Shown piece after piece: positions 22,091-39,226 of a DNA stretch of 64,000 nt. Source of the stretch: Spirochaetota bacterium. GTDB taxonomy: Bacteria; Spirochaetota; UBA12135; COTS27; JAFLEE01. Location: contig JAFLEE010000007.1 in assembly GCA_017302015.1 (NCBI GenBank), positions 1 through 64,000 of the forward strand, in the 5' to 3' direction. How positions within the stretch are numbered: the first letter of the stretch is position 1; each line of letters opens with the position of its first letter. A model generated the notes under the pieces. The model had not been told where the DNA came from. It saw only the letters and a list, made by a program, of their open reading frames with translations, and did not search any database. The translations under genes were made by a program, and so were the position numbers.

Positions 22091-22690
22091 ATGAAAAACC
22101 TCTTACTCATCTGCGGCCTATTCGTCGCAACGGGGTGCGAAACTACCCGAACCGCGGTGAACCTCGATGCGGCCCAAGAAGTGAAAACGGTCGCGGTGCT
22201 CCCCTTCGACCTTGAAGCGGGCCTCTCGCCCGAGGCCGCCCGGGATTCCGAGGCCTTCTTCGCCGCCCTCCTCATGCAAAACGGCTTCAAGGTGGTGGAA
22301 CGGGAGCGCATGGGCGCGATCCTCAAGGAACAGGCCCTCTCGGCATCGGGGCTCACCGGGGCCGACACCCTCAAATTGGGCGAACTCGCCCACGCCGACG
22401 CCCTCCTGTTCGGGAAGGTCCTCAAAAACCAGGAGGGGAAAAAGACGGTGAGCGAGACCGACAGCAACGGGCAGTCGGTGGAAGCCCAGCGGCGCTTCTA
22501 TGATTTCAAACTTTCCGTTCGCCTGGTCCGCTCCCAAGCGGGCGAGACCGTGTTCTCCCAAGTGAACCAGATCGCCGAGAGGGTCCAGGATCCGAAGTTC
22601 ATCTTCCCGGATGACCTCTCGGCCTGGCGCGCGATGGTCCTCGATGGGATGGGTCGCGACCTGAAGAAGGCCCTCAAAAAAAAGAAATAG
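22091..22690 (+). CDS. CsgG/LpoB-like lipoprotein
   Basis: A 199-residue exported lipoprotein with the lipobox ATGC at residues 13-16 (Cys16 lipidated). The mature part begins VAVLPFDLEAG and continues FKVVERERMGAILKEQALSASGLTG, the pattern of CsgG/LpoB/TolB-N-like domains, which appear in curli secretion pores and in peptidoglycan synthase activators. At about 180 mature residues with no amyloid-secretion partners nearby, a LpoB-like or stress-adapter role is as likely as a pore. The C terminus is Lys-rich. It sits inside the sulfur island but has no evident sulfur function. A weak GGAG lies 13 bases upstream of the ATG. Confidence 0.75.
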   Translation: MKNLLLICGLFVATGCETTRTAVNLDAAQEVKTVAVLPFDLEAGLSPEAARDSEAFFAALLMQNGFKVVERERMGAILKEQALSASGLTGADTLKLGELAHADALLFGKVLKNQEGKKTVSETDSNGQSVEAQRRFYDFKLSVRLVRSQAGETVFSQVNQIAERVQDPKFIFPDDLSAWRAMVLDGMGRDLKKALKKKK

Positions 22691-22738: not shown

Positions 22739-23464
22739 TTAAATATTGATGCCCAGGAAATCCGCCACGAAGGCGTCGGCGGGGGCCCCGCGGATCTCGC
22801 CGGGGGTTCCGCTCTGGGCGACCTTGCCGTCCCGCAGGATGACCACGCGGTCGGCGAGGTCGAAGGCCTCCTCCTGGTCATGGGTGACGAAAAGGGTCGT
22901 AAGGCGGGTGCTGTCATGGAAGGCCCGAAGCCAGCGGCGGAGCTCCTTGCGCACCTGGGCGTCGAGGGCGCCGAAGGGCTCGTCCAAGAGGAGCACCCGG
23001 GGTTCGACGGCGAGGGCCCGTGCCAAGGCCACCCTCTGGCGCTGCCCCCCCGAGAGTTGAGCGGGAAAATAGCGGTGGTACTCGGCTAATTTGACCCGGC
23101 CGAGGAGGTCCATCACCCGGCGGCGGATCTCCCCCTCGCTCGGCCTCTCGCGTCGGGGCCTCACCCGCAGGCCGAAGGCGATATTCTCGAAGACGCTTAA
23201 GTGCTGGAACAACGCGTAATGCTGGAAAACGAACCCGGCCCGCCGAACGTGGGCCGATTCGCCGGTGACCTCCGTTCCATGGAAATGCACTTCCCCCGAG
23301 TCGGCGGACTCGAGCCCCGCGAGGATCCGAAGGAGCGTCGTTTTCCCCGACCCGCTGGGTCCGAGGAGGGCCACGAGTTCGCCGCTCGCCACCCGCATCC
23401 CCACCTGGTCGAGGACCCTCTGGGCCCCGAATTGCTTGGTGACGGCGAAGGCCTCCAGACTCAT
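22739..23464 (-). CDS. cysA: Sulfate/thiosulfate ABC transporter ATP-binding protein, short form
   Basis: A 241-residue ATPase, last gene of the importer operon cysTWA. Walker [10 protein letters not shown], signature [15 protein letters not shown], Walker B LLLDEP and switch His (FVTHD) are intact, and [20 protein letters not shown] is typical of CysA. Most CysA proteins have about 340-360 residues with a C-terminal TOBE-like regulatory domain; here the chain ends right after the nucleotide-binding domain ([10 protein letters not shown]), so allosteric control by that domain is missing. It overlaps cysW by ATGA (23461-23464), which fixes the start; a longer frame upstream is a shadow of cysW. 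Confidence 0.9.
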
Positions 23465-24324
23465 GGCGCCTCCGCGAAATCGCGGCGCACGGCGGCGAGG
23501 GCGAGTCGCTGCCGCCACTCCACCCAAGCTTTTACCCCCAGGGTCGCCAGGGCGAGGAGCGTAAGGAGGGTGGCCACCGCGAACGCCGCCTGCACCTGGT
23601 ATTCGCTGTAGAGGATCTCGATATGGAGCGGAAGCGTGTTGGTGACACCGCGGATATGGCCGGAAACGACGCTCACGGCACCGAACTCGCCCACCGCCCG
23701 GGCCGTGCAGAGGATCACGCCGTAAAGGAGGCCCCACTGGATCTTGGGCAGGGTCACGCGCCAGAGGACCTGGAACCCGCGGGCCCCCAGGGTGAGGGCC
23801 GCCTCCTCTTCCGCGCGGCCGAGGGACTCCATGAGTGGGAGGACGTTCCGGGCCACGTAGGGGATCGTCACGAAGATCGTCGCCAGAACGATGGCGAAGG
23901 GGGTGAAGATCACGCGGATGCCGAGGGCGGAGAGGGCGGGACCGAGGAGGCCTTGGGCGCCGCAGAGGATGACGTAGAGGAGGCCGCTGACCACGGGAGA
24001 AATCCACAGGGGAAGATCCACGGCGCTCGCGACGAGGCTCTTGCCGGGGAACTCGAAGCGCGCGAGGGCCCAGGCCGTCGCCACGCCGAAGACGAGATTG
24101 AAGGGCACCGCGATGGCGGCGGCGAAAAGGGTGAGGCGCAGGGCATCGAGGGCGTCGGGATGGCGCAGGGCACCGAGGTAGGCTCCGGCCCCTTTGCGCA
24201 GCGCCTCGATGAACACCGTGGCCAAGGGGAGCGCGAGGAGGAGGCCCATGAGCGCCACGACGAGGAGGATGAGGGCCCGGCGCACCCAAACGGGTTCGCC
24301 CGAGGCCGGTCGGTAGGTGGCCAT
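23461..24324 (-). CDS. cysW: Sulfate ABC transporter permease CysW
   Basis: A 287-residue inner-membrane permease with about six membrane segments. The cytoplasmic EAA-type loop that contacts CysA is [22 protein letters not shown], and the C-terminal [19 protein letters not shown] is a signature of CysW. It lies 7 bases after cysT and overlaps cysA by 4 bases. With CysT it forms the sulfate channel fed by the Sbp-like protein encoded at 31777-32793. Confidence 0.92.
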
Positions 24325-24331
24325 AGGTTTC

Positions 24332-25162
24332 CTAGGCCCCCAGGCGCCGCCGGTTCCAGGCGCTCACCCGATGGAAAACGGCGAGGATGATCACGGAGAA
24401 GAAGAGCATGATCGTCCCCACCGCCGCGGCCCCCGCGTCGTCGTACTGCTCGAGTTTGGAGACGATGAGGAGGGGCACGATCTCGGTCTTGAAGGGGAGG
24501 TTCCCGGCGATGAAGACCACCGAGCCGTATTCCCCCACGCCCCGTCCCAACGCGAGCACGATGCCCGTGAGCCAGGCGGGGAGCACCGCCGGGACCACCA
24601 CCCGCACGATCGTCGACCAGCGACCGGCCCCCAGGCAGGCGGCGGCCTCCTCGTATTCCTTCGGCAGTCCCTGGAGCGCCGGCTGCAAGGTGCGCACGAC
24701 GAAGGGGAAGCCGATGAACGACAAGGCGAGGAAGATGCCCAGGGGCGAATAGGCGGCATGGATGCCCCAACGAAGGAGCGGCCCGCCGAGCCAACCATTG
24801 GGCGCGTAGAGCGCGGTGAGGGCGATGCCCGCCACCGCGGTGGGAAGGGCGATGGGAAGATCGACGAGAGCGTCGAGGAACCGCCGGCCGGGAAATTCAT
24901 AGCGCGTGATCACCCAGGCGGCCAGGCCGCCGATGACGCCGTCGAAGAGCGCCGCCAGGGCGGCCACGCCGAAACTGAGGCGGTAACTGGCGAGAAGGCG
25001 TGGGTCGATGATGGTCTGCCAGGCATGAAGCCAGCCGCCGCTAATGGATTTGAGGACGAGGGCCGCCAGGGGGATTAGGACTAGGAAGCCGAGGACGGTC
25101 AGGGTGATGCCGAGGCTGACTCTGAGGCCTGGGAAGAGGGGGGGACGTGTTTTTCTAATCAT
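24332..25162 (-). CDS. cysT: Sulfate ABC transporter permease CysT (CysU)
   Basis: A 276-residue permease with six predicted membrane segments. The EAA loop is EEAAACLGAGRWSTIVRVVVP, followed by GRGVGEYGSVVFIAGNLP, which is diagnostic of CysT/CysU. First gene of cysTWA. The ATG at 25162 has no Shine-Dalgarno sequence: a promoter (TTGACA, 17 bases, TAGAAT) ends only 10 bases upstream, so the message is nearly leaderless. The sulfur-regulon palindrome overlaps the -10 box, predicting repression when sulfur is plentiful. Confidence 0.92.
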   Translation of the reverse strand: MIRKTRPPLFPGLRVSLGITLTVLGFLVLIPLAALVLKSISGGWLHAWQTIIDPRLLASYRLSFGVAALAALFDGVIGGLAAWVITRYEFPGRRFLDALVDLPIALPTAVAGIALTALYAPNGWLGGPLLRWGIHAAYSPLGIFLALSFIGFPFVVRTLQPALQGLPKEYEEAAACLGAGRWSTIVRVVVPAVLPAWLTGIVLALGRGVGEYGSVVFIAGNLPFKTEIVPLLIVSKLEQYDDAGAAAVGTIMLFFSVIILAVFHRVSAWNRRRLGA

Positions 25163-25201
25163 TAGTATTTATATTCTATCGATTATAAGGCTTTATGTCA
25201 A
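25162..25201 (-). promoter_or_regulatory. cysT promoter with sulfur-regulon palindrome
   Basis: On the minus strand TTGACA (25201-25196), a 17-base spacer and TAGAAT (25178-25173). The palindrome-like sequence read on the plus strand as TTAGTATTTATATTCTAT (25162-25179) matches the operator type ATAG-N10-CTAT in 7 of 8 arm bases and covers the -10 box and transcript start. Confidence 0.6.
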
Positions 25202-25541
25202 TGTGGGTTTTTTGAGGGGGAGCGGGAAGCGGCGTCTTTTTTGGAGGGGAGGAGCGTCGAAAAAGTTTTCGATGAGCTATTATGTGATATTAGCCCACGA
25301 CAAGAATCATTCTAAATCTAGAAATCCATCCACCTAAATCCTATGACATCCTCACCAAACCTCACACCAAGCCAAAACCCTCACGGCGCACCAAACCCGA
25401 CATCCCTAGGCCCAACCGGCAAAATCGCCCTCCCCCCTAGGAGGTTCAGGGGCGCCAAGGGGGGGCTGGTGGCCGTTCTCACCCCGAGCATAGGCGATGT
25501 CCCCGCCTTCGATGGCGAAACAATGTCTGAGAGTCGACCAC
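25202..25541. other. Intergenic stretch between divergent cysT and cysH promoters
   Basis: No convincing gene or RNA is seen. An 80-codon open frame at 25343-25585 is rejected: it is Pro/Ser-rich, has no ribosome-binding site and ends inside the cysH promoter. Confidence 0.6.
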
Positions 25542-25576
25542 TTGACGCAGCTTCCCATATAGTATATATTGTCTAT
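25542..25576 (+). promoter_or_regulatory. cysHDNG-sir promoter with sulfur-regulon palindrome
   Basis: TTGACG (25542-25547), a 17-base spacer and TATATT (25565-25570). ATAGTATATATTGTCTAT (25559-25576) has perfect ATAG/CTAT arms with a 10-base spacer, as at the sulfhydrylase promoter, and overlaps the -10 box. Confidence 0.65.
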
Positions 25577-25595
25577 AGCCTTTAGGATGTTTTGA

Positions 25596-26345
25596 ATGCC
25601 CCCCGATCCTCGCCTCCTCCAGACTTCCCTCGATGGTCTCGACCTGAGCTCTGCCCTGGCCTTCGTGGCCTCGCGCTACGGAGAAAGCGCCGCCTTTTCC
25701 ACGAGTTTGGGCCTGGAAGACCAACTCATCACCCACGCCATCTTCGCCGGGGCCCTGCCGATACGCGTGTTCACCCTCGATACGGGTCGCCTATTCCCCG
25801 AGACCCTGGAAACCCTGGAGGCCACCCGGGAACGCTACCACCGAAGCATCGAAGTCTACGTCCCCGATGCCGCCTCGGTGGAAAAACTCCTCACGGCGAA
25901 GGGGGCCTTCAGTTTTCGCCGCAGCATCGAGGATCGGAAGGAATGCTGCCGCATCCGCAAGGTGGAGCCCCTATCCCGCGCGCTCCAGGGCGCGCGACTT
26001 TGGATCACGGGCATCCGCGCGGAGCAGGCGGATTCCCGCAAAGACCTGCCCACCGTGGAGTGGGACGAGGGGCACGGCCTCCTCAAGTGGCATCCCCTCC
26101 TCCATTGGAGCCTGGTGGAGGTGGAAGCCTACCTCAAGGACCATGGCGTTCCCGTCAACGCCCTCCACGCGCGCGCCTACCCGAGCATCGGCTGCCAACC
26201 CTGCACCCGCGCCGTGAAACCCGGCGAAGAGGCGCGTTCGGGGCGCTGGTGGTGGGAGCAGGCCGAGCAGAAAGAATGCGGCCTGCATTTTAAGGACGGC
26301 AAGGCCGTGCGAAATGCGAATCCGGGCGAGAAGGAAAATCCATGA
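25596..26345 (+). CDS. cysH: Adenylyl-sulfate (APS) reductase, thioredoxin-dependent
   Basis: A 249-residue reductase making sulfite from activated sulfate. The N-type ATP pyrophosphatase fold shows FSTSLGLEDQLITHAI. The four Cys that bind the [4Fe-4S] cluster in APS-type enzymes are present (KECCRIRKVEPL and GCQPCTRAV), as is the C-terminal ECGLH with the catalytic Cys. The cluster motif marks it as a bacterial APS reductase rather than an enterobacterial PAPS reductase, consistent with the absence of an APS kinase (cysC) gene here. First gene of an operon; AGGA lies 8 bases before the ATG, and the stop overlaps cysD by 4 bases. Confidence 0.93.
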   Translation: MPPDPRLLQTSLDGLDLSSALAFVASRYGESAAFSTSLGLEDQLITHAIFAGALPIRVFTLDTGRLFPETLETLEATRERYHRSIEVYVPDAASVEKLLTAKGAFSFRRSIEDRKECCRIRKVEPLSRALQGARLWITGIRAEQADSRKDLPTVEWDEGHGLLKWHPLLHWSLVEVEAYLKDHGVPVNALHARAYPSIGCQPCTRAVKPGEEARSGRWWWEQAEQKECGLHFKDGKAVRNANPGEKENP

Positions 26346-27235
26346 TGGATGCCATCGACGAACTTGAAGCGGAGGCCATCTCGATCCTTCGGGAAGTCGC
26401 CGGGCAGTATTCCCGCAGCGCGCTCCTCTTCTCGGGCGGCAAGGATTCCATCGCCCTCGCCCGCCTCTCCGAGAAGGCCTTCCGCCCCGGGCGCTTCCCC
26501 TACCCGCTCCTGCACATCGATACCGGGCATAATTTCCCCGAGGCCATCGAATACCGCGACCGGATGGCGGCGGATCTCGGCGAGGAACTCCTCGTGCGCC
26601 GGGTGCAGGACTCCATCGACGCGGGCAAGGCCGTGGAGGAGACAGGCAAGGGCGCCAGCCGCAATGCCCTCCAATCCATCACCCTCCTCGACGCGGTGGC
26701 CGAGTTCCGCTTCGAGGCCCTCATCGGCGGCGCCCGGCGCGACGAGGAGAAGGCGCGGGCCAAGGAGCGCGTCTTCAGCCTGCGGGACGAGTTCGGCCAA
26801 TGGGACCCCAAACGCCAGCGCCCCGAACTCTGGAACCTCTACAACGGCCGCCTGCGCCCCGGCGAGCACGTGCGCGTCTTCCCCCTCTCCAATTGGACCG
26901 AACTCGACGTCTGGGAGTACCTGCGCCGCGAGGGGGTCGAACTCCCCTCCCTCTACTTCTCCCATTCGCGCAAGGTGGTGCGCCGCGGGGCCGCCCTGTT
27001 CCCGGTCTCGCCCTTCGTCCACGTCGACCCCGGGGAGGAGATCCTCGAATCCACGGTGCGCTTCCGCACGGTGGGCGACATGACCTGCACCGCCGCGGTG
27101 GAATCCCGGGCCGCCACCCTCGACGCGGTGGTGGAGGAGATCCGCCGCAGCCGGGAGAGCGAGCGGGGTTCCCGCCTCGACGACCAGCGCAGCGAGGCCG
27201 CCATGGAAGAGCGGAAAAAACAGGGGTATTTCTGA
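26342..27235 (+). CDS. cysD: Sulfate adenylyltransferase subunit 2
   Basis: A 297-residue ATP-sulfurylase catalytic subunit that makes APS from ATP and sulfate. The PP-loop is LLFSGGKDSIA, followed by LLHIDTGHNFPE; GGARRDEEKARAKER and FPLSNWTELDVWEYL are standard CysD landmarks. It ends in the usual basic KKQGYF. The start overlaps the cysH stop (ATGA) and its stop overlaps the cysN start by one base (TGATG), so all three are translationally coupled. Confidence 0.95.
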   Translation: MMDAIDELEAEAISILREVAGQYSRSALLFSGGKDSIALARLSEKAFRPGRFPYPLLHIDTGHNFPEAIEYRDRMAADLGEELLVRRVQDSIDAGKAVEETGKGASRNALQSITLLDAVAEFRFEALIGGARRDEEKARAKERVFSLRDEFGQWDPKRQRPELWNLYNGRLRPGEHVRVFPLSNWTELDVWEYLRREGVELPSLYFSHSRKVVRRGAALFPVSPFVHVDPGEEILESTVRFRTVGDMTCTAAVESRAATLDAVVEEIRRSRESERGSRLDDQRSEAAMEERKKQGYF

Positions 27236-28518
27236 TGCGCCGCCTACGCTTCATCACCGCCGGCTCGGTGGACGACGGCAAGAGCACCCTCATCGGGCGC
27301 CTCCTCTACGAGACCGGGGCCGTGCTCAACGACCAACTCGCGGCCCTGGAGAGGAGCCGCATCCGCAACGAGAACGGCTCGGTCAACCTCGCCCTGCTCA
27401 CCGACGGCCTCATGGACGAGCGCCTGCAGGGCATCACCATCGACATCGCCTGGAAATACTTCGCCACCGCCGCGCGACGCTTCGTCATCATCGACGCCCC
27501 CGGCCATGTGCAGTACACCCGCAATATGGTCACCGGGGCCTCCCATGCCGACCTCGCGGTGATCCTCATCGACGCCCGCAAGGGGGTCATCGAGCAGACG
27601 CGCCGCCACTCCGCGGTGGCCGCGCTCCTGGGCATCCCCAGGATCGTGGTGGCTGTGAACAAGCTCGATCTCGTGGGCTTCGACCGCGGTCGCTTCGATC
27701 GGATCGCCGGGGACTATCTCGGCATCGCCGAAAAACTGGGCCTCAAGGGGGTCCACCTCCTCCCCGTGAGCGCGCTCGAGGGCGACAACGTGGTCTCCCG
27801 TTCGACGCGCACCCCGTGGTATGACGGGCCCCCGCTCCTGGAACTCCTGGAATCGGCCCCCGTGGACGAGGGCATCGAGGCCCGCCCCGCGCGCATGGCG
27901 GTCCAGCACGTCATCCGGCCCCAGGCCAAGGGCTTCCACGATTATCGGGCCTTCGGCGGCCAGGTGCTCTCGGGCACCTTCCGCAAGGGCGACGCGGTGA
28001 CCCTGCTCCCCAGCGGGGCCACCACCCGCGTCCTTTCCGTGGAGGCCGCTGGCCGGGAACTCGCCGAGGGGCCAGCCCCCCTTTCCGTCGCGTTGCGCCT
28101 GGCCCATGAAGTCGATGCCAGCCGGGGCGATTGGATCGTCGCCAGCGGGGCCCCGCCGATCCTCTCCCAGGACCTGGTCGCCGACTTGTGCTGGTTGGAT
28201 GAGAAGCCCCTGGTCGAGGGCGCCCGCACGCTCGTGCGCCACGGCACCGCGTTTTTGCGCGCATCGGTGCGCGACTTAAGCCGCCGCTGGGATCTGGATT
28301 CGATCGAAGAGAAGCCCCTCACGAACGGGGACCGCCGCCTTGCGTTCAACGAATTGGGGCGGGTCACGATCCGCCTGGCTCGGCCCATCCCCTTCGATCC
28401 CTATGGGGAAAACCGCCTCACGGGCGCCATGGTGCTCATCGACGAGGCGAGCGGGCGCACCGTCGGGGCGGCGATGATCCGCGCGAGCGCCCCGCCCGAC
28501 GACGAACCTTCCATCTAA
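27235..28518 (+). CDS. cysN: Sulfate adenylyltransferase subunit 1 (GTPase)
   Basis: A 427-residue EF-Tu-like GTPase whose GTP hydrolysis drives APS formation by CysD. G1 is AGSVDDGKST, G3 DAPGH, G4 NKLD; QGITIDIAWKYF is the CysN switch-I region. The C-terminal half has two beta-barrel domains (FGGQVLSGTFRKGDAV). There is no C-terminal APS kinase fusion, which agrees with an APS-reducing pathway. Start ATG 27235 shares a base with the cysD stop; the longer frame upstream is a shadow of cysD. Confidence 0.95.
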   Translation: MRRLRFITAGSVDDGKSTLIGRLLYETGAVLNDQLAALERSRIRNENGSVNLALLTDGLMDERLQGITIDIAWKYFATAARRFVIIDAPGHVQYTRNMVTGASHADLAVILIDARKGVIEQTRRHSAVAALLGIPRIVVAVNKLDLVGFDRGRFDRIAGDYLGIAEKLGLKGVHLLPVSALEGDNVVSRSTRTPWYDGPPLLELLESAPVDEGIEARPARMAVQHVIRPQAKGFHDYRAFGGQVLSGTFRKGDAVTLLPSGATTRVLSVEAAGRELAEGPAPLSVALRLAHEVDASRGDWIVASGAPPILSQDLVADLCWLDEKPLVEGARTLVRHGTAFLRASVRDLSRRWDLDSIEEKPLTNGDRRLAFNELGRVTIRLARPIPFDPYGENRLTGAMVLIDEASGRTVGAAMIRASAPPDDEPSI

Positions 28519-28541
28519 GCCCCGATCCTGAACACTCGCCC

Positions 28542-30014
28542 ATGAATCCCGACCCGTCCTCCTCGAGCGCCGCGGCCCCCTCCGCGGCCAAAACCAAGGC
28601 ACCAAGAACCGGGAGCGTCGCCTTGATCGGAGCCGGTCCCGGGCATCCCGACTTGCTCACCCTGAAGGGCGCCCGGCTGTTATCTCTCGCTGAAGTGGTC
28701 GTCTACGATGCGCTCCTCCATCCCGCGATGCTCGATCTATTCCCCGCCGGGGCACAGCGAGTCTTCGCGGGAAAACGCGCGGGAAAACATTCCCTGAGCC
28801 AAGGGGCCATCCAAGAAATCCTCATCGCCAAAGCGCGGGAAGGAAAGCGGGTGGTGCGCCTCAAGGGGGGCGACCCGTTCATCTTCGGGCGCGGTGGCGA
28901 AGAAGTTCGCGCGCTCCAAGCAGCGGGCATCCCCTACGAGGTCGTCCCGGGCGTGAGCGCCCTCAACGGCGCGGCCACCGGCGCGCTCCTTCCCCTCACC
29001 CATCGGGGCCTAAGCCATTCCTTCCTCGCCATCGAGGGTTCCGATGCGGATCGGGATGGTTTCGCCCGGGCCCTCGCCTCCCGGGTCCAAACCGTCATCG
29101 TATTCATGGGGGGGCGGCACGCCGCGCGCATCGCCGCCATCGCGTTGGATGGGGGTTGGAACGGCGAGACCCCCGCCGCCCTGGTCTGGAACGGGGGGCG
29201 GCCCGACGAGGTCCTCTGGCTCGGGGACCTCGACCGACTCTCTCGCCGCGAGGAGGAGGCGCCGGTGGACGGCCCGTGCCTCATCTATTTCGGGGAATCC
29301 CTTGCGGTACTCCGAGCCGACGAAGGGAAGATTCCCCGAGCCGCTCAAGACCGTGACCCTCCCGCCACAACCCGAAGTGCCTCCCCGATCCCGTTGACTT
29401 TCCCGGTCTGGCTTAAACTCGGGGGCGAGCGCGTGCTGATCGTGGGGGGCGGCACGGTGGCCCTCCAAAAGATCCGCTCGCTCCTGGGGACGGGCGCACA
29501 GATCGATGTCGTCGCCCTCGCCGTGCGGCCCGAATTAGATCGCCTTTTAGCGGAGGCTTCCCTAAGACGCATCGACCGGCGCTCCGTTGTGGAGAGCGAT
29601 CTCACGGGGGCGCGCTTGGTGGTGTGCGCCGCGAATGACCCCGCCACCAACGCCCAGGTCGCCGCGTGGGCCCGCCGGGCCGGCATCTGGGTCAATAGCG
29701 TGGACGACCCGGCCGCGTGCAGCCTGCTCACCGGGGCCGTGGTGGAGCGCGGGCCGGTCCGCGTCGCCATCGGTACGGAGGGCCGCCTTCCCGGGCTCTC
29801 CGGCCTGTTGCGTCGCCTGCTGGAGGGCCTGCTTCCCGGGGACCACGACGGCGCCTGGGCCGATCTGGAAAGGGCGAGGGACGAACTCAAGTCGCGCCTG
29901 CCCTCCTCCCCCGAGCGCATGGCCATCCTCCGGGAAACCCTCGGCCAATTAGAAGAACGCTATTTCAAAAAATCCGCGCTGCCCGAACGGGCGCACCCCC
30001 AGGAAATCCCATGA
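28542..30014 (+). CDS. cysG: Siroheme synthase, SUMT-precorrin-2 dehydrogenase fusion in reversed order
   Basis: A 490-residue bifunctional enzyme making siroheme for the sulfite reductase encoded next. Residues about 25-260 are uroporphyrinogen-III C-methyltransferase (VALIGAGPGHPDLLTLKGA, VRLKGGDPFIFGRGGEE, VVPGVSALNGA). Residues about 290-480 are a Met8/CysG-N-type precorrin-2 dehydrogenase/ferrochelatase (VLIVGGGTVALQKI, VNSVDDPAACSLLTGAVV, which keeps the catalytic Asp). In E. coli CysG the dehydrogenase is N-terminal and the methyltransferase C-terminal, so the order here is inverted, joined by a 25-residue linker. The gene is 23 bases after cysN and overlaps sir by 4 bases. No clear Shine-Dalgarno sequence. 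Confidence 0.9.
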   Translation: MNPDPSSSSAAAPSAAKTKAPRTGSVALIGAGPGHPDLLTLKGARLLSLAEVVVYDALLHPAMLDLFPAGAQRVFAGKRAGKHSLSQGAIQEILIAKAREGKRVVRLKGGDPFIFGRGGEEVRALQAAGIPYEVVPGVSALNGAATGALLPLTHRGLSHSFLAIEGSDADRDGFARALASRVQTVIVFMGGRHAARIAAIALDGGWNGETPAALVWNGGRPDEVLWLGDLDRLSRREEEAPVDGPCLIYFGESLAVLRADEGKIPRAAQDRDPPATTRSASPIPLTFPVWLKLGGERVLIVGGGTVALQKIRSLLGTGAQIDVVALAVRPELDRLLAEASLRRIDRRSVVESDLTGARLVVCAANDPATNAQVAAWARRAGIWVNSVDDPAACSLLTGAVVERGPVRVAIGTEGRLPGLSGLLRRLLEGLLPGDHDGAWADLERARDELKSRLPSSPERMAILRETLGQLEERYFKKSALPERAHPQEIP

Positions 30015-31693
30015 CTGAACCCGCCAAACTCCACGCCAACGAAGCCATCAAGGAGAAATCCCGCGGGCTGCGGGGCTCGCTCGCCGCGGAACTGAAGAGC
30101 GGCGAATCCGGCCTCAGCGCCGACGGGCAGCAGCTCATCAAGTTCCACGGCCTCTACCAGCAATACGACCGCGAGAAGATCGGGCCGGTGAAGGACCGCG
30201 CCCACACCTTCATGCTCCGCGGCCGCATCCCCGGGGGGCGCCTCAGCGCCGCCCAGTACCTCATGTGGGACGGCCTCGCCGACGAGTTCGGCGGCCAGAC
30301 GCTGCGCCTCACCACGCGCCAGAGCCTCCAACTCTACGGGCTCCTGAAGGGCGACCTGAAGCGCGTCATCCAACGCATTTGGGACCACGCGCTTTCGACC
30401 CAGGGCGCTTGCGGCGATATCGTGCGCAACGTCACCCAGGCGGCCAACCCGTGGGGCCGCCCCGATCTCGCCCAACTCGACCCCGTGGCCGCCCGCCTCT
30501 CCAACCATTTCATCGCCAAATCCGCGGCCTATCTCGAGACGTGGATCGATGGGGAGCCCGTGACCCCGCCGAACCAGGTGGAGGCCGACCCCATCTACGG
30601 GAAGACCTACCTTCCGCGCAAGTTCAAGATCGCCGTCACCTTGGCGGGCAATAATTCCGTGGACCTCTACACCAACGACCTGGCCTTCGCCGCCACCCTG
30701 GCCGGCGATGGACGCATCGGCGGCTACCACGTCTTCGTCGGCGGGGGCCTGGGCACGACCCACAACAAACCCGAGACTTTTCCGCGCAAAGCCGACCACC
30801 TGGGATGGATCCCCGCCAACCACCTGCTCCCCGTCGCCGAGGCCGTCGTGACCGCCCACCGGGATTTCGGCGACCGCAGCGACCGCAAGCACGCGCGCCT
30901 CAAATACGTGCTCCATGAGAAGGGGGTGGACTGGTTCCGCAGCGAAGTGAGCCAACGGGCCCACGTGTTCTTCGAACCCCGCCTGCTTCCCCCCTGGAAC
31001 ACGCCCTCCTACCTCGGGTGGCAGAAGATGGTCAATGGGAACCTGGCCCTGGGCTTCCATCTGCTCTCCGGACGCCTGCGCGACGAGAAGGGGCGGCCCC
31101 TCAAATCGGCGGTGGCCCACCTCGTGCGCGAGTTCCGCCTCCCCGTCCAACTCACCTCCGACCAAGACCTCATCTTCCTCGATATCCCGCCCCACCGGAA
31201 GGGCGAAATCGAAACCTACCTCGCGGCGCGCGGGCTCTCCCCCGACGCGCCGACGAAGGTACATGAGCGGGCCATGGCTTGCCCCGCCTTGCCCACCTGC
31301 TCCCTGGCCATCACCGAAGCCGAGCGCTTCCTTCCGAAATTCCTTTCGGAGGTAGACGCCCTTTTGGCGAAGCACGGGCTCCAGGACCGGGCCCCCGTCC
31401 TGCGCATGACCGGATGCCCCAATGGATGCGCCCGGCCCTATACCGCCGAGATCGGCCTCGTGGGCCAGCAGGCGGGGGGAAAATACGCGCTCTACGTGGG
31501 CGGCGACCATGAAGGCACGCGCCTCGCTTTCCCCTTAGCGGATAAATTGCCGCTGGATGAAATCAAAAGGATGCTCGACGGGCTCTTCGCCGCATGGAAA
31601 TCCGAGGGGGCCGAACAGGAGCGTTTCGGTTCCTACGCCGCGCGCCTTTCGGCGGAGGCTTTGAGGGCGAAACTGTCCATCGCCAATTCCTGA
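30011..31693 (+). CDS. cysI: Assimilatory sulfite reductase hemoprotein
   Basis: A 560-residue siroheme/[4Fe-4S] enzyme reducing sulfite to sulfide. Two duplicated ferredoxin-like halves are visible; substrate-binding basic motifs include LTTRQSLQLYGLLK, and the cluster Cys residues are in ACPALPTCSLAITEAER and TGCPNGCARPY, the CysI pattern. Nitrite reductase is the alternative, but position in a cysHDNG operon argues for sulfite. No flavoprotein subunit (CysJ) is encoded here, so electrons may come from ferredoxin or an unlinked partner. Start fixed by the 4-base overlap with cysG; last gene of the operon. Confidence 0.92.
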   Translation: MTEPAKLHANEAIKEKSRGLRGSLAAELKSGESGLSADGQQLIKFHGLYQQYDREKIGPVKDRAHTFMLRGRIPGGRLSAAQYLMWDGLADEFGGQTLRLTTRQSLQLYGLLKGDLKRVIQRIWDHALSTQGACGDIVRNVTQAANPWGRPDLAQLDPVAARLSNHFIAKSAAYLETWIDGEPVTPPNQVEADPIYGKTYLPRKFKIAVTLAGNNSVDLYTNDLAFAATLAGDGRIGGYHVFVGGGLGTTHNKPETFPRKADHLGWIPANHLLPVAEAVVTAHRDFGDRSDRKHARLKYVLHEKGVDWFRSEVSQRAHVFFEPRLLPPWNTPSYLGWQKMVNGNLALGFHLLSGRLRDEKGRPLKSAVAHLVREFRLPVQLTSDQDLIFLDIPPHRKGEIETYLAARGLSPDAPTKVHERAMACPALPTCSLAITEAERFLPKFLSEVDALLAKHGLQDRAPVLRMTGCPNGCARPYTAEIGLVGQQAGGKYALYVGGDHEGTRLAFPLADKLPLDEIKRMLDGLFAAWKSEGAEQERFGSYAARLSAEALRAKLSIANS

Positions 31694-31776
31694 GTACCGC
31701 CGCGCCGGGCTATCCTATCGCCACGGGGAAATTGGAATTCCCCGGGACGCACGGCGCTTGCTTCCCTCCCCGAGGG

Positions 31777-32793
31777 TTACTTGGACTCCCTCCGAAAAAG
31801 TTGATCGAAGGTGCCGCCGTCCGAAAAGTGCGTCTGCTGCGCCTTCTGCCATCCGCCGAAGGCCTCATCGATGGTAACGAGCCGGATCGCCGGAAATTTT
31901 GAAGCGAACTTGGCGGCCACCGAGCGCTCCGTCGGGCGGAAGCCGTGGCGGGCCGCGATCTCCTGCCCCGCGGGGCTATAGAGGTATTCGAGGTACGCCT
32001 TGGCGATCTCGAGGTTACCGTGCTTCTTCGCCACCGACTCCACGACCGCCACCGGAGGTTCGGCGAGGATGCTGAGGCTCGGGTACACCACCTCGAATGG
32101 ATCTGTTCCGAACTCGCGTCGCACGAGGTCGGCCTCGCTCTCCCAAGAAAGGAGCACATCGCCGAGGCCGCGCTGGGCGAAGGTGAGGGTACTTCCGCGG
32201 GCCCCCGAATCGAGTACGGGCACGTTTTTGAGGAGGGCCCCGACGAACGCGCGGATTCTCGGTTCCTCGCGATCGAAATTCTTCGAAGCCCAGGCCCAGG
32301 CGGCGAGGTAATTCCATCGGGCGCCGCCGGAGGTCTTGGGGTTCGGGGTGATCACCGCCACTCCCGGCTTCACGAGATCGCCCCAATCCTTGATCCCCTT
32401 CGGATTGCCCTTCCGCACGAGGAAATGGATCGTCGAGGTGATGGGGACGCCGTGGTTCGGCAATTTCTTCCGCCAATCAGGCGAAAGCAAGTTTGCCTTC
32501 GCGGCGATGACGTCGATATCATAGGCCAACGCGAGGGTCACGACGTCGGCTTCGAGGCCTTCGATCACGGCGCGGGCCTGCTTTCCGGACCCTCCGTGGG
32601 ATTGGCGGATTCGGACCGCGACCGCCGTTTTCGCCTGGTACGCTTTGGTGAAGGCAGTATTGAACTCTTGGTAGAGTTCGCGGGTGGGATCATAGCTGAC
32701 ATTGAGGAGTTCCGGGGCAGACATTCCCATTGTGAATACTAGGGCCAGGCTGATGAGGAGGGTGCGGGAGGTGGTATATAAAGGGGACGTCAT
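31777..32793 (-). CDS. sbp: Sulfate-binding periplasmic protein
   Basis: A 338-residue exported substrate-binding protein for the CysTWA importer. The signal peptide ([16 protein letters not shown]) is followed by [17 protein letters not shown], then [32 protein letters not shown] and LLSWESEA, all hallmarks of the Sbp/CysP family. It is transcribed toward sir and separated from cysTWA by the reductive operon. AAGGA lies 8 bases before the ATG. The promoter upstream carries one clear half of the sulfur-regulon palindrome. Thiosulfate may also be bound. Confidence 0.93.
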
Positions 32794-33132: not shown

Positions 33133-34434
33133 TCACAGCTTCGAAATCCACCCCCTCACCACCGCCCGATCCGAGGCATGGGGCTCTAAACTCAAGTAGC
33201 GCTCGTAATAGGCCTTCGCCTTGACGCGATCCGGCTTCAGCCGGGCATAGAAACTTCCTTGATTGCGGGCCAAGAGGGCGAACTTCGAGTCGAGTCCCTC
33301 CGCCCGGCTTAATTCTCGTTCCGCACCGGGAAGATCCCCTGCGGCAGCTAGGGCGGTGCCTAAGTTCATCGCGAAGACCGGGTTCGACGGTTCGAGGGAG
33401 GCGGCGCGCCTAATGCATTCCACCGCGGGCGCGCTCCGTCTTTCCCCGTGGTGCAGAACCCCCAGCCAGAACCAAGCGGGCGCGAAGTCGGGGCTGGCCT
33501 TGAGGCAAGCTTGAAAATCACCCACGGCCCCGGCCTCCCGGGACGCATACTTGCACCGCGCAAAAACATAGAGACACTCGGGATGGCGCTGGCGTTCCCA
33601 CGCCTCCCGGGCGAGGGAGAGGGCGCCGTCATAGCGCCCCTCGGCGAGGGCGAGGAGCGCGAGGTCGAGCCGCTTACGCACGGGGTCGGCGTTGGATTCG
33701 ATCTGGCGCGTCAGCGGCAAGAGTTCGATGCGCTCGGGATGGGGATCAAGTTCCACCGACCGAATCGCGGCCGAACCAGAAGCTGCGGACGATACGGCTG
33801 CGCCTGCGGAGGAGCTTGCGCGGTAGCGGAGATCGCCAACGAGGCTCGCGATGTTTTTCACCCACGTGTCGCGGAGGTCGATGATCCCCACATGGTCCGG
33901 CGTCGCGAGGACGAGGGCGCGGCAACGTTTCTGCTCCGATGGATCGAGTTCCCCGAAATAAAGGCGCCAATAGGCGACGGTCGGCGCGTATTCGCTGCCC
34001 GCCGCCAGGGATGCTTCCAAGCGCTTCAAAACGGCGTCGCCCTCCTTGGGTCGTCCGAGTTCCAATCCCAAGATTCCCGCATGATAGATGCGCCCTCGGA
34101 TGGCCATATCCGCATCGGGGGCCCGGGCGGCCTCGATGAAATCTGCCTCCGCCCCCAGGAGGAGGGGCCGATCGGAACGCGGGGGCGGTCCTTGCCGATA
34201 GGCGAGCAGGCGGGCTCTCCCGCGGTAATATTTCCAAGCCGGCTCGCTTAACCCGAGGCCCGCATGCCAAGGGTTTCTTTCGCAATAGACGAGGGCTTGG
34301 GTGCCCCTTTGCTCCGAAAAGAAACGGCGCATCTCGAGGGAAAAGGGCGCCCGATCATCGACGGCCGGAAATAGGGCCGCGATCATAAGGGAGGCGAGGA
34401 GCAAGCCCCGACGGAACGGTGGGGGGATTTTCAT
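33133..34434 (-). CDS. Exported TPR-repeat protein of unknown function
   Basis: A 433-residue protein with an N-terminal membrane/signal segment (GLLLASLMIAALFPA). At least four TPR-like helical pairs are visible in the C-terminal half (for example LALLALAEGRYDGALSLAREA, and later FAPAWFWLGVLHHGERRSAPA and PVFAMNLGTALAAAGDLPGAE). A Ser/Ala-rich linker (SSSAGAAVSSAASGSAA) separates two helical parts. TPR proteins are scaffolds, so it may organise envelope proteins. It overlaps the upstream transglutaminase-fold gene by 4 bases, so the two probably act together. Not recognised as a named family. Confidence 0.75.
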   Translation of the reverse strand: MKIPPPFRRGLLLASLMIAALFPAVDDRAPFSLEMRRFFSEQRGTQALVYCERNPWHAGLGLSEPAWKYYRGRARLLAYRQGPPPRSDRPLLLGAEADFIEAARAPDADMAIRGRIYHAGILGLELGRPKEGDAVLKRLEASLAAGSEYAPTVAYWRLYFGELDPSEQKRCRALVLATPDHVGIIDLRDTWVKNIASLVGDLRYRASSSAGAAVSSAASGSAAIRSVELDPHPERIELLPLTRQIESNADPVRKRLDLALLALAEGRYDGALSLAREAWERQRHPECLYVFARCKYASREAGAVGDFQACLKASPDFAPAWFWLGVLHHGERRSAPAVECIRRAASLEPSNPVFAMNLGTALAAAGDLPGAERELSRAEGLDSKFALLARNQGSFYARLKPDRVKAKAYYERYLSLEPHASDRAVVRGWISKL

Positions 34435-36158
34435 GGGCGTGGAACCACCGCGTAATCGAGGAACTCATTCCAATCTTCCCTCCCGGCGGCATTCGTTTCG
34501 CCGCGGTAGAAGGTCAGCCCGATCGTCGTGGGGCGCACGTCGAAGACCCAACCATCCCCCGCCTTCTTGATGGCCTCGACGCTCCGGTTCCCGAAGCGCT
34601 CCTTGAAATTGCTGAAATAGAAGGTCGCCCCGGCGGCGGCGCGGAACCTAAAGCGATACGCCTCTCCGGCGATCAGCGGCCCCATGGGCGCCTCGAGGAT
34701 CTCCAGGGGAGCGACCCCATAGGTGCGCACCCTGGGCAGTTCCACCCCACCGCTGGCGGGTAAAAGTCCGAGGGGGAACCGGAAGGCGAACATCCCCTTC
34801 CAATCGTCTTCTGTATTGTTGGTGGCGCGAGCGGCCAGCGCCAAAGCTTTCCCGGCGGGAACCCCGTAGGCGATAAAATTGGAGAGGAGGGTGATGGGAA
34901 CCTGCGAAAGATTGTCGTATTGCTCGAGGAGCGTTTCGGTGGACAAGCCCAGGGCGCGGTAGGGCTCGAGGGGAACCGCCTGGCACCTTGGATTTCGGTC
35001 CAGGAGGGATACCGCGGCCGCGAACGGGAACCCCGCCCGCATCAGGTCGCGGCAACGCCAAGAGGAGATCGTCGGATGGGCTTCCAGGAAGGGGGCGAGA
35101 GCGTTTGAAGCGACCCCCTGATCGAGGTAAAACGATAGTTGGTAGGTATCCAAGTCCGGGAAACGGGATATCAACCGGATCGCTTGCGGGAGGGGGACGC
35201 CCGCCGCGCCGAGGCGCACGAGCGGTTGCAGGTTCCGGTTGGATTGGCCCTTGAGGAAGCGCGGAATCTCCTCGGCGGGCATCCCCAAGTCTCTCATGCT
35301 CGCGAACGCGGAAAGATCGAGGTCGGCGTGCTCGCGCAGGAGCTTCGTGGCCGCGGGGAAGGCGACCCCTTGGCGCAGGAGGGACAGGGCCCGAAAGACA
35401 TCGGCATTCGTGCCGGATTTGATCCAACGAACAGCCGCATCGGGCGGGGCTCCCGCTAAAACCAGGGCGCAAAAGCGTGAATCGACGACTCCCGGTAGCC
35501 CCACGAGTTCGTCCCAGACGCCCTCCAGGGGGATGCCCAATTCGCCAAAACGTTCGAGGGCCGCGGTGGTGAGGGCGGGTTCGGTGGCGAAGCGGGCCCG
35601 GCTCGTGAGCGCGCCCGCCCAGGTCGCGCCCGCCGCCGCATCGGCGAGAAGATGGGTTTTATAGAAGGGAAAGGCCGGCGTATCGAACCAAACCGGCGAC
35701 AGGCGGGCGCGATAGCGTCCCGCGACCATCCCCCCGGCGCCCCAGGCGCAATCCACCAGATGCCATTGCCCGCCCCATTCCACCGCGTTCCAGGAGTGGT
35801 TCGGCGGGCCGTCGAGTTGGGACGGATTCCAGGCGGCTCCCTTCGCCCAACCGCGGAAAACCCGGGCCTGGAGACCGCACCGTTTGGCGAGATCGGCGAA
35901 GGAGTCCGCGAGGGCCGCCTCGTCCACCGGGCCGCCTTCCGACGGAACCAAGCGTTCGCAAACGAGCGCGAAAAGCGCGAAGGCCTGGTCTCGCGGGGAG
36001 GCTCCCACCGAACGCGCCTGGAGACTGATCGCTCCCGCCTCGCGCGTCAGCGGCAAGGAGCGGACGAGTTCGAGGACGGGATCCTCCGCGGCCGCGAGCC
36101 ACCCGGCGCAAGCGAGGGCCAAGGCGGGGATCCGCAATAAAGGAATGCGCTTCGACAT
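34431..36158 (-). CDS. Exported transglutaminase-fold protein, catalytic Cys apparently absent
   Basis: A 575-residue exported protein (signal peptide LLRIPALALACAGWLAAA). Residues about 55-145 match the transglutaminase/KY-like core: KRCGLQARVFRGW, NHSWNAVEWGGQWHLVDCAW. The His (121) and Asp (136) of the papain-like triad are present, but where the Cys-bearing helix should start the sequence reads GGPVDEAALADS, with Glu80 at the aligned position. It is therefore probably a non-enzymatic, binding version. The rest is alpha-helical with a repeating LLxxG-VPxxxAL pattern and a beta-rich C terminus (FRFRAAAGATFYFSN). First gene of a two-gene operon with the TPR protein. Start at 36158 chosen by signal peptide; frame upstream is shadow. 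Confidence 0.75.
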   Translation of the reverse strand: MSKRIPLLRIPALALACAGWLAAAEDPVLELVRSLPLTREAGAISLQARSVGASPRDQAFALFALVCERLVPSEGGPVDEAALADSFADLAKRCGLQARVFRGWAKGAAWNPSQLDGPPNHSWNAVEWGGQWHLVDCAWGAGGMVAGRYRARLSPVWFDTPAFPFYKTHLLADAAAGATWAGALTSRARFATEPALTTAALERFGELGIPLEGVWDELVGLPGVVDSRFCALVLAGAPPDAAVRWIKSGTNADVFRALSLLRQGVAFPAATKLLREHADLDLSAFASMRDLGMPAEEIPRFLKGQSNRNLQPLVRLGAAGVPLPQAIRLISRFPDLDTYQLSFYLDQGVASNALAPFLEAHPTISSWRCRDLMRAGFPFAAAVSLLDRNPRCQAVPLEPYRALGLSTETLLEQYDNLSQVPITLLSNFIAYGVPAGKALALAARATNNTEDDWKGMFAFRFPLGLLPASGGVELPRVRTYGVAPLEILEAPMGPLIAGEAYRFRFRAAAGATFYFSNFKERFGNRSVEAIKKAGDGWVFDVRPTTIGLTFYRGETNAAGREDWNEFLDYAVVPRP

Positions 36159-36188
36159 AATGGGACGATCGTATAATTCGAGCATAAC

Positions 36189-38258
36189 ATGAAGGCGAAC
36201 GCCCCCTTCGACCGGACGAAACCACGCGCGAGCCTCCGCCGCGCCGCGGGTTGGCTCCTCTTCGCGCTCCTGCTCTCCTCCGCCCGGGCGGAAAGGAGCG
36301 GGGCCGAGGTCCTCGCCTTCGATCCCATCGTCGCCAGCCCCGACGCCAGCCAAGAGACCCCCGCGATGCTCTCCGCGGCCTGGAAAGCCCTCACCAACGA
36401 GCGGCGCATCGCCCGCAAGCTCGATGCGCGCCTGGACTGGTACTTCAAGGAGCATGCGCGCTTCGAAGCGGGCCTCCGCGAGACCGACGTGGCCGTGATC
36501 CGCACCGCGGGCCGCGCCCTTCAACTCACCCTCTGGGCCGACCGCCACGGCCACCGCGCCGCCTGCCGGGAGACCGGCGTCGAAGACGGTCGCGTCGCGG
36601 CTTGGGGCGGCGGCGAAGATGGAAACCGCGGCCTCCCGCCATGGCAAAGGCTTCTCAGCCAGGCCCTCGAGACGGCTCCCTTCGCCGCCGAGGGGCCCAC
36701 CCTCGCTTCGACTCTGGTGGATTGGAACGGCCGGCTGATGTCGGTCTACGGCGAAGCGTTGGGCGAGTTCGCCCTCGCGGAGGCCCGCCGCGCCTTTACG
36801 GTCATCGAGTACGACCGTATGCCGCGCCTATTTAAAGAGCAGCAACTCGTCATGACGGGCCTCGTCGTTCCCCAGGATGAATCCGCCACCGACCCCTGGG
36901 AACCCCCCGCCCTGCTCCTCGGCGGCTCGGTCAAGAGCTTCCGCGACCTCACCTCCGTCCGGGTCGAACTCCGCAGCAACCATTTGGCCCCGCGCAAGGC
37001 CGGGGCGCCCGCCGGGGGCCTCCAGAGTTTCCTGCTGTCCACCGAGGAACGCTCGGAGAACTCCCGGGTCCTCGAGACGTGGACGCGGGCGGTGAACCGG
37101 CTCCTCGCCGATTGGCGCCGCAGCGGCACCCTCGAGTTCGAGATGCGCGCCGACCCCAACACCGCGGCCTCGGTCGCCGCGGCCGGCAAGGGGTTCACCC
37201 TGCGCCCCGGGGAGCCCCGACGCATCCTCACCGCCGAAGGCGCCTACCGGGTCTTGGCCCAGGCGGAGGGCATGAAACCCATCGACCAAATCCACCGGGT
37301 GGCCCGCGGCTCGGTCACCACCGCCATCCTCGCGTTCGAACCCGCGACGCTTCCCCGACGCACGCGGCACGACGGGGCCGTGGTGGCGGTCGCGATTTCG
37401 CCCGACGGCAGGCTCGTCGCAAGCCTTTCCCGCCGTTCGCTCCTCGTCCATTCCGCGGACAGCGGACAGGGGCGGTATTACCAGGCGGCCAGCGACGAGT
37501 CGGGATTCGGCGATTTCCTCGCGTTTGAAAGCGAAAACCGTCTATTATTCTGCCCCGGGGAAGGGCGGCTCTCCCGATGCACCTTGGGGGCGACTCCCAC
37601 GCTCACCGCCCTCCCCCTCCCCGACGGATTCACCCCCGTCGCCTTCCACCGCGCCCTCGACCTTTTGGCGGGGACGCGCTCGGTGACCTATGCGACCCGA
37701 GACATCTCATACTGGCGCCTCGACTCCCCTTCGACCCCCTGGGTCGCCAATGCCGCCGCGCCGGCCTTGGCCGTCTTTGACGCCACGGGCGAGCGCTTCG
37801 CCTGGTGGAACAGCTCGGGGGGGATCATGGTCCGCGAAAAAGGCGCCACGCGCACGCTCGCTTCCGTAGGCGCGCCCCCCTGGGGCCTCGAGTTTTCTGC
37901 CGATGGAAATAGCCTCGTGGTCGCCCAATGGCAGGGCCTTTCGACCCTTCCCTTGGCCGGGGGCGGCCCCGCCGAGTGGGCGCTCGCGCTTCGCCCGTCG
38001 TCCGCCGCCGTCCGGGGGCCCGGCACGACGTGGGCCGTGGCCACGGATGATCGGAGCGTCCTCCTCCTCGATGGCCAGGGGCCGAAGGCGCTGCGCGCGG
38101 CCCGCGAACTTCCCGAGCAGATCCTCCACCTCGCGTTCTCCCCCGATGGCCGCTTCCTCGCGATGGGGGGATGGTTCGGCCTCGTGGGTGTGATCGAGGC
38201 CGCGAGCGCCCGGGTTGTCTGGCAATCGAAGCCGGCCCCGGTCGCGGAGGTCCCGTGA
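36189..38258 (+). CDS. Exported CsgG-like / beta-propeller fusion protein
   Basis: A 689-residue exported protein (signal AGWLLFALLLSSARA). Residues about 40-225 resemble a CsgG/LpoB-type domain, ending in FTVIEYDRMPRLFKEQQLV and TGLV, the same pattern as in the lipoprotein at 22091. Residues about 395-680 are a WD40/PQQ-like propeller (VAVAISPDGRLVASLS, LEFSADGNSLVVAQW, LAFSPDGRFLAMGGW). No lipobox Cys is seen. It is divergent from the transglutaminase-fold gene with only 30 bases between starts and overlaps the next gene by 4 bases. TATAAT (36172-36177) lies 11 bases before the ATG. Role unknown; an envelope assembly or sensing scaffold is plausible. Confidence 0.7.
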   Translation: MKANAPFDRTKPRASLRRAAGWLLFALLLSSARAERSGAEVLAFDPIVASPDASQETPAMLSAAWKALTNERRIARKLDARLDWYFKEHARFEAGLRETDVAVIRTAGRALQLTLWADRHGHRAACRETGVEDGRVAAWGGGEDGNRGLPPWQRLLSQALETAPFAAEGPTLASTLVDWNGRLMSVYGEALGEFALAEARRAFTVIEYDRMPRLFKEQQLVMTGLVVPQDESATDPWEPPALLLGGSVKSFRDLTSVRVELRSNHLAPRKAGAPAGGLQSFLLSTEERSENSRVLETWTRAVNRLLADWRRSGTLEFEMRADPNTAASVAAAGKGFTLRPGEPRRILTAEGAYRVLAQAEGMKPIDQIHRVARGSVTTAILAFEPATLPRRTRHDGAVVAVAISPDGRLVASLSRRSLLVHSADSGQGRYYQAASDESGFGDFLAFESENRLLFCPGEGRLSRCTLGATPTLTALPLPDGFTPVAFHRALDLLAGTRSVTYATRDISYWRLDSPSTPWVANAAAPALAVFDATGERFAWWNSSGGIMVREKGATRTLASVGAPPWGLEFSADGNSLVVAQWQGLSTLPLAGGGPAEWALALRPSSAAVRGPGTTWAVATDDRSVLLLDGQGPKALRAARELPEQILHLAFSPDGRFLAMGGWFGLVGVIEAASARVVWQSKPAPVAEVP

Positions 38259-39226
38259 TCCGATCCCCGCTTCGGGCCTTCTCGCTGGCGTGCCTGTTCG
38301 CCCTCGGGGCCCCGCGTTCGCTTCCGGCCGTCGCCGTGCTGCTGGAAGCGCCCGAGCCCTTCGTCCAACCCCTCCTGGAGCGCATGCGCGCCGTGGCCGC
38401 CGAAGCCCTCGTCGAAAGCGATCCGAACGCGGATTGGGTCGTGGGCGCCGACGGCGCCGCCTTTCGCCTCACCCGCATCTCCAATCGCCGGATCCAGGCG
38501 GTCGTGACGAACCGGGGGCGCCAATTCGCCCGGCGCGACGGGGGGGCCACGATCCTCCGGCCGCTATTCTCCACCCTCCAGGGCATCACCCGCCTCGGCT
38601 ACCAGGTCGGCCACCAGGGCACCGCTGGATCTTATGCCTATCGACTCGAACTTTCAGCCATCAACCGGGCCGCGCAAATCCTCACCGGGCGCGCCCTCAT
38701 CCACCGCGGCCCCTTCCACGCCCATCTGGAACCCGATGGCCTCGACCGCCTCCTTCGGCGCCTCGACCCCGGGCCCGAAGGTTTCATGGGCCCCTGGCCG
38801 GCCGCCGCCCTCTACTACGGGCGCCGACCGTTTATCCGCTACGCCGCCGCCACGCTCGCCCTCTTGAGCCAAGAAGAGGCGGTCTGGGCGGCCTACGAGG
38901 GCCAGTACCTCGCCGCCATGCACGGCGTGCGCGCCAAGCCCCCGGGATTCCGGGCGCTTCTGGCCCGTTTCCCCGCCCTGAGCGCGCGCGCCTACGCCGT
39001 GCCCGAGGGCGCCTCCGCATGGAGCGACGCCGAGATGATCCGCTTTTGGATCCGTCGGTCCCACGACGGAAGCGTGGGCACGCTCGCGGCGTGGCTCGTG
39101 GAACTCATCCGCCGCCACGATCCCGAGTTCCACACGGATCCGCGTTGGGCACGCTTTCGCGAACAGGGCCTCGGCGCCCTCGGGAAAGTGCACGCGGAGT
39201 CCGCCTTCCAGCCGCCCGGGCGCTGA
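38255..39226 (+). CDS. Exported protein of unknown function
   Basis: A 323-residue exported protein with a signal peptide (LRAFSLACLFALGAPRSLPA). The GTG start at 38255 overlaps the previous stop (GTGA) and has GGAGG 5 bases upstream. The N-terminal 120 residues look like a mixed alpha/beta domain (LLEAPEPFVQPLLERMRAVA) resembling the beginning of CsgG/TolB-N-type domains only loosely; the rest is helical. No family recognised. Coupling to the CsgG/propeller gene suggests a shared function in the envelope. Confidence 0.7.
   Translation: MIRSPLRAFSLACLFALGAPRSLPAVAVLLEAPEPFVQPLLERMRAVAAEALVESDPNADWVVGADGAAFRLTRISNRRIQAVVTNRGRQFARRDGGATILRPLFSTLQGITRLGYQVGHQGTAGSYAYRLELSAINRAAQILTGRALIHRGPFHAHLEPDGLDRLLRRLDPGPEGFMGPWPAAALYYGRRPFIRYAAATLALLSQEEAVWAAYEGQYLAAMHGVRAKPPGFRALLARFPALSARAYAVPEGASAWSDAEMIRFWIRRSHDGSVGTLAAWLVELIRRHDPEFHTDPRWARFREQGLGALGKVHAESAFQPPGR

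Follow-up and report, generated by a model that had tools for sequence, protein, structure and literature searches.

Four adjacent genes for exported proteins in a spirochaete genome raise the question of which of them belong together and what they build. The window that we analysed is a 64,000-nucleotide stretch of the 5.4-Mb assembly of a Spirochaetota bacterium that is the sole sampled member of its family and genus, in a class with three further sampled relatives. Within it, a preliminary description had read the following divergent pair of two-gene operons as a co-regulated four-protein envelope system:

33133-34434, minus strand: gene A, TPR protein, 433 aa
34431-36158, minus strand: gene B, transglutaminase-fold protein, 575 aa
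36159-36188: divergent gap between the B and C starts, 30 bases
36189-38258, plus strand: gene C, CsgG-like/propeller protein, 689 aa
38255-39226, plus strand: gene D, orphan, 323 aa, GTG start

A, B, C and D are real genes. In codon usage the called frame ranks top of six for each of them (0.16, 0.28, 0.39 and 0.42 bits per codon, respectively, with the other frames at -1.0 to +0.05). Coordinates and codon usage both agree with the layout as it had been described: ATGA at 34431-34434 is common to the stop of B and the start of A, GTGA at 38255-38258 is likewise common to the stop of C and the start of D, giving two 4-base overlaps, and 30 bases separate the divergent starts, or only 3 if B begins at an alternative in-frame ATG at 36185. 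The gap holds a perfect TATAAT (36172-36177, plus strand) 11 bases before the ATG of C; if this is a promoter, the C transcript would be almost leaderless. The gap has no clear -35 element, and a consensus scan returned no two-hexamer promoter in it. Signal peptides, which all four proteins had been said to carry, were assessed by eye, without a predictor, and are clear in B and C and plausible in A and D. Beside the locus, positions 23461-32793 resemble by eye a sulfate transport and assimilation cluster, with ABC permeases and PAPS-reductase/CysD-like, sulfite reductase-like and sulfate-binding-like proteins.

The protein encoded by C appears to comprise two CsgG-like halves (residues ~39-145 and ~170-300), a PEGA-like region (~310-380) and a WD40-type beta-propeller (~390-685). 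The propeller end of the fusion proposed earlier finds weak confirmation (WD40, 4e-6; THOC3 propeller, 6e-8). Its CsgG-like end, however, holds through the family only: residues 1-394 of the window protein match no Pfam family at E 0.1, CsgG included, and the label is owed to homologues. Of 11 aligned C-family members, nine show PEGA, six show CsgG and four show FlgO, with best scores of 3e-5 for FlgO and a marginal 8e-4 for CsgG (PF03783), whose curated cut-off the window protein does not reach. The C-family halves thus match domains of the CsgG/FlgO/TolB-N/LpoB type (PF03783, PF17680), but the family differs from these in its tandem duplication, its PEGA domain and variable tail, its marginal scores, and its want of a lipobox, no Cys having been seen by eye where the signal region ends, either in the window protein or in the relatives viewed. 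A single-sequence AlphaFold run on the N-terminal part gave no usable model (pLDDT 33). Another lipoprotein, which belongs to the CsgG family (Pfam CsgG, E 4e-14), is encoded about 11 kb away at 22091-22690 on the plus strand; used as an internal reference, it aligns weakly with both halves of C (E 0.002 and 0.003).

The TPR assignment of A stands (TPR_19, 5e-11). A helical N-terminal region (~27-211) precedes C-terminal TPRs (~260-430), and the TPR half is homologous to TPR lipoproteins encoded upstream of C-family genes. The N-terminal half recurs in G146, in G003 of the same class and, duplicated, in genomes of family f12. Several f12 genomes are low in GC, and they encode an exported protein of about 690 aa carrying this domain twice (L080 3355-5415, L081 5728-7761 and others), next to a hisS-like gene; among the neighbouring genes read in these genomes, which look Brachyspira-like by eye, no C partner was seen.

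Searches across the phylum suggest where A and C belong. A direct search of 393 genomes with C gave one strong match (E 5e-32, 28% over residues 25-384), in G146, a genome from another family. On its 7.2-kb contig the gene 3 bases upstream of the C homologue, on the same strand, encodes a protein homologous to A along its full length (38% over 431 aa, E about 1e-88). The C homologue ends in an FGE-like domain in place of the propeller, and G146 has nothing that matches B or D. A profile of A retrieved TPR lipoproteins of ~250 aa in many genomes, and the proteins encoded downstream of these combine two CsgG-like halves with PEGA and TPRs. A C-type profile run on 355 genomes then gave strong matches at ~30 loci. 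In 22 of the 26 that could be tested, C is directly preceded, on the same strand, by a gene for an A-type TPR protein, usually a lipoprotein, at a spacing of about -28 to +17 bases, and these adjacent pairs span nine families (f7, f10, f21, f27, f30, f32, f37, f40 and f43); the four loci without an adjacent A all belong to family f18. The 26 exclude the window itself, G070, where the sequence is masked, and G191 and G049, where the contig ends. A 'giant' frame of 24,351 aa with a C-family match in G070 consisted of masked bases only and was discarded.

Comparative genomics shows the association of A with C to be strongly conserved. Conserved gene order, by which the preliminary description had itself proposed to judge the system, was found for A and C but not for B and D, neither of which has an orthologue in the 393 genomes, and among about 390 genomes that of the window alone showed the divergent arrangement of four genes. 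The data do not show four co-regulated proteins acting as one system; they show a conserved core of two proteins to which others were added locally. The locus is real, but the unit was drawn too wide, the conserved unit being A plus C, with B and D local to it. A limited literature search found no mention of an A-C module and none of CsgG combined with a PEGA domain. What is new here is a spirochaete module that seems not to have been described before, together with the rearranged and enlarged form that it takes in the window.

The genes downstream of C differ widely between genomes. In about 11 loci C is followed by a third gene, whose exported product starts with a small beta domain and in two of the five viewed carries an extra domain (FGE-sulfatase-like in G206, C-type lectin in G091). 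This third gene was not found elsewhere in the window genome or in G146. The tail of C also varies, from TPRs in the wider family to the FGE-like domain of G146 and the propeller of the window. FGE-sulfatase-like and C-type lectin domains occur as the C tail in G146 and in the post-C gene elsewhere (L048 1267-5308; L093 2883-3899; L089 7201-7953), a distribution that suggests domain swapping. The window joins an A-type TPR protein and a C-type protein with two CsgG-like halves and PEGA at one locus, with G146 as the bridge, but departs from the usual order, in which A directly precedes C on a common strand. Here A and C lie on opposite strands with B between them, a propeller takes the place of the TPRs at the end of C, the third gene is absent, and B and D have been added. 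At the level of sequence, the comparison shows the window pair to be a diverged, rearranged copy of the conserved spirochaete two-gene module, and B and D seem to be additions restricted to this lineage. The locus is an example of a core of this kind being rearranged and acquiring partners specific to one lineage, and four hypothetical proteins become a testable unit, with a two-gene core present in at least nine families of the phylum and swappable domains around it.

B contains a transglutaminase-fold domain (~55-200), about nine helical repeats of 28 residues (~205-470) and a C-terminal domain that is beta-rich by eye. The repeats have a period of exactly 28 (self-similarity z = 7.3, all other lags between 20 and 39 scoring 1.8 or less), and the region looks like a solenoid-like array. 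The direct Pfam match to the transglutaminase family is weak (0.032, below cut-off), and homologues back the fold at E values of 1e-12 to 1e-15 over residues 84-196, which makes homology to the Transglutaminase core (PF01841) clear from the sequence comparison. The domain finds matches in 35 genomes, its own included, with a paralogue at 7.5e-17; a single match from the contig search was rejected as an orthologue, covering the transglutaminase domain only. The fold proposed earlier is thereby upheld, but the catalytic Cys is gone. In an alignment of the catalytic site the His (NHSWNAV) and Asp (VDCAWG) of the Cys-His-Asp triad are kept, and the position of the Cys is occupied by Glu or lost, with no Cys nearby. 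Two more spirochaete transglutaminase-fold proteins (L008 622-2196 and L022 883-2298) have Ala and Ser there, so loss of the Cys recurs in the family. A paralogue in the same genome (L025 4473-6566, on G000:C98) has all three motifs intact; no A- or C-like neighbour was seen beside it. One might suppose from the clear fold homology and this intact paralogue that B is catalytically active as a transglutaminase or protease, cross-linking or trimming envelope proteins, but the state of its Cys position already contradicts this, and we regard it as very improbable. A closer parallel is the transglutaminase-like domain of yeast Cyk3, which keeps His and Asp, lacks the catalytic Cys and activates a wall synthase (PMC4758748). 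B shows the same pattern of residues, but B is exported by a bacterium and carries 28-residue repeats, whereas Cyk3 is a eukaryotic cytokinesis protein with an SH3 domain.

D matches no Pfam, NCBIfam or PDB family and has no homologue in the 393 genomes of the phylum. One match in G081 (E 6e-4) falls inside a fumarate hydratase-like gene and is attributed to chance. Sequence comparison revealed no relation to the C family, the A family or the recurring third gene, and the idea that D is a diverged version of that third gene was rejected on this ground. A single-sequence AlphaFold model was not usable (pLDDT 39).

How might these proteins work together? The likeliest reading is that C is a scaffold, A the protein that places it, B a non-catalytic partner and D a lineage-specific neighbour, built around the rearranged module. 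We consider this quite possible while stopping short of calling it probable. C would oligomerise into a scaffold located in the periplasm or on the inner side of the outer membrane; the CsgG-like halves would build the multimer, and PEGA and the exchangeable tail would reach the wall or client proteins. A would bind C through its TPRs and aid its assembly or localisation, much as TPR lipoproteins of the PilF/Tgl type help secretins to assemble or localise (PMC5285504). B, presumably on one transcript with A, may act as a binding or regulatory partner in the manner of Cyk3, and D, presumably co-translated with C, is possibly a dedicated partner. We infer oligomerisation, a pilotin-like A and a regulatory B from CsgG/FlgO-type proteins, PilF/Tgl (PMC5285504), FlgO/FlgT (PMC7990780) and Cyk3 (PMC4758748). 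The proteins fall outside the CsgG, pilotin and active-transglutaminase families as such, but may resemble them in working principle.

The pilotin comparison deserves some care. Like PilF, PilW and Tgl, short A-family members are TPR lipoproteins, with a length of ~250 aa; they are encoded beside a putative ring-forming partner, and Tgl and MamA are among the top NCBIfam similarities of the A family. The similarity to Tgl, PilW and MamA TPR proteins (best 1.8e-22) stays below the curated cut-offs that were checked. Window A does not exceed the equivalog cut-offs (PilW, 16 bits against 154; Tgl, 12 against 225), its partner is CsgG-like and not a secretin, and it is longer and has no lipobox Cys after its signal region, where most of its short relatives have a lipobox-type Cys by eye. 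A pilotin-like role is weaker for window A because it lacks this lipid anchor. Further points against the scaffold reading as a whole are that the window has A and C on opposite strands, that TPR similarity by itself is promiscuous, that the four f18 loci have C without an adjacent A, and that B and D are tied to the core by adjacency and overlaps only. A bolder version, which seems to us doubtful, is that of a new Spirochaetota envelope machine in which A assembles double-CsgG/PEGA rings, the swappable tail (TPR, FGE or beta-propeller) and the third gene (FGE or C-type lectin) set the client, and this deep lineage recruited a dead transglutaminase with a solenoid of 28-residue repeats and an orphan protein. 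If a ring or scaffold reading is true, it would amount to a new envelope assembly in a phylum with an unusual cell envelope.

The same features can be divided differently. All four proteins may form one co-regulated complex driven from the shared 30-base region, as the overlaps in both pairs and the narrow gap would favour; the pairing elsewhere of A and C, one from each arm, also makes it probable that the arms are not unrelated. The lack of any B or D orthologue, or of another such layout, among about 390 genomes, together with G146, which has the closest A and C without B and D, makes this rather unlikely. Conversely, A and C may cooperate alone, with B and D unrelated genes that landed alongside during rearrangement. 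Their absence wherever else the module is found fits this, as does the variety of genes after C, but each arm has its 4-base overlap and B was inserted precisely in the space that separates A from C, which suggests that joint expression has been selected for, and we hold this to be possible without expecting it, if a shade less unlikely than the complex of four.

Resemblance to CsgG also raises the prospect of curli-like export, in which C would be an outer-membrane pore of the CsgG type and either D or B its cargo or accessory. The CsgG matches in the C family would fit, but they are marginal and bettered by FlgO, the family has two CsgG-like halves and no lipobox, and no curli subunit or CsgE/CsgF-like gene appears in the loci read, so that such a pore is improbable. 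Equally improbable, in our estimate, is a flagellar ring part like FlgO/FlgT of Vibrio. FlgO matches in four C-family members and the presence of FlaA genes in the organism favour it; against it, the loci read contain no flagellar genes, and no strong C-family match appeared in the f20 or f12 genomes sampled, FlaA carriers as well. The FlaA family is specific to spirochaetes, and its matches indicate that the phylum of the window genome is Spirochaetota. The H-ring consists of a few periplasmic and outer-membrane proteins that contain CsgG-like domains. FlgO and FlgT are H-ring proteins of the Vibrio flagellum (PMC7990780), and the likeness to the C family lies in the CsgG-like domains; the A-C module differs in showing no linkage to flagellar genes at the loci read and in its PEGA, TPR and FGE/lectin partners, which are not H-ring parts. 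FlaA itself gave three matches in the window genome and was matched in four of five relatives tested and in none of 14 control genomes.
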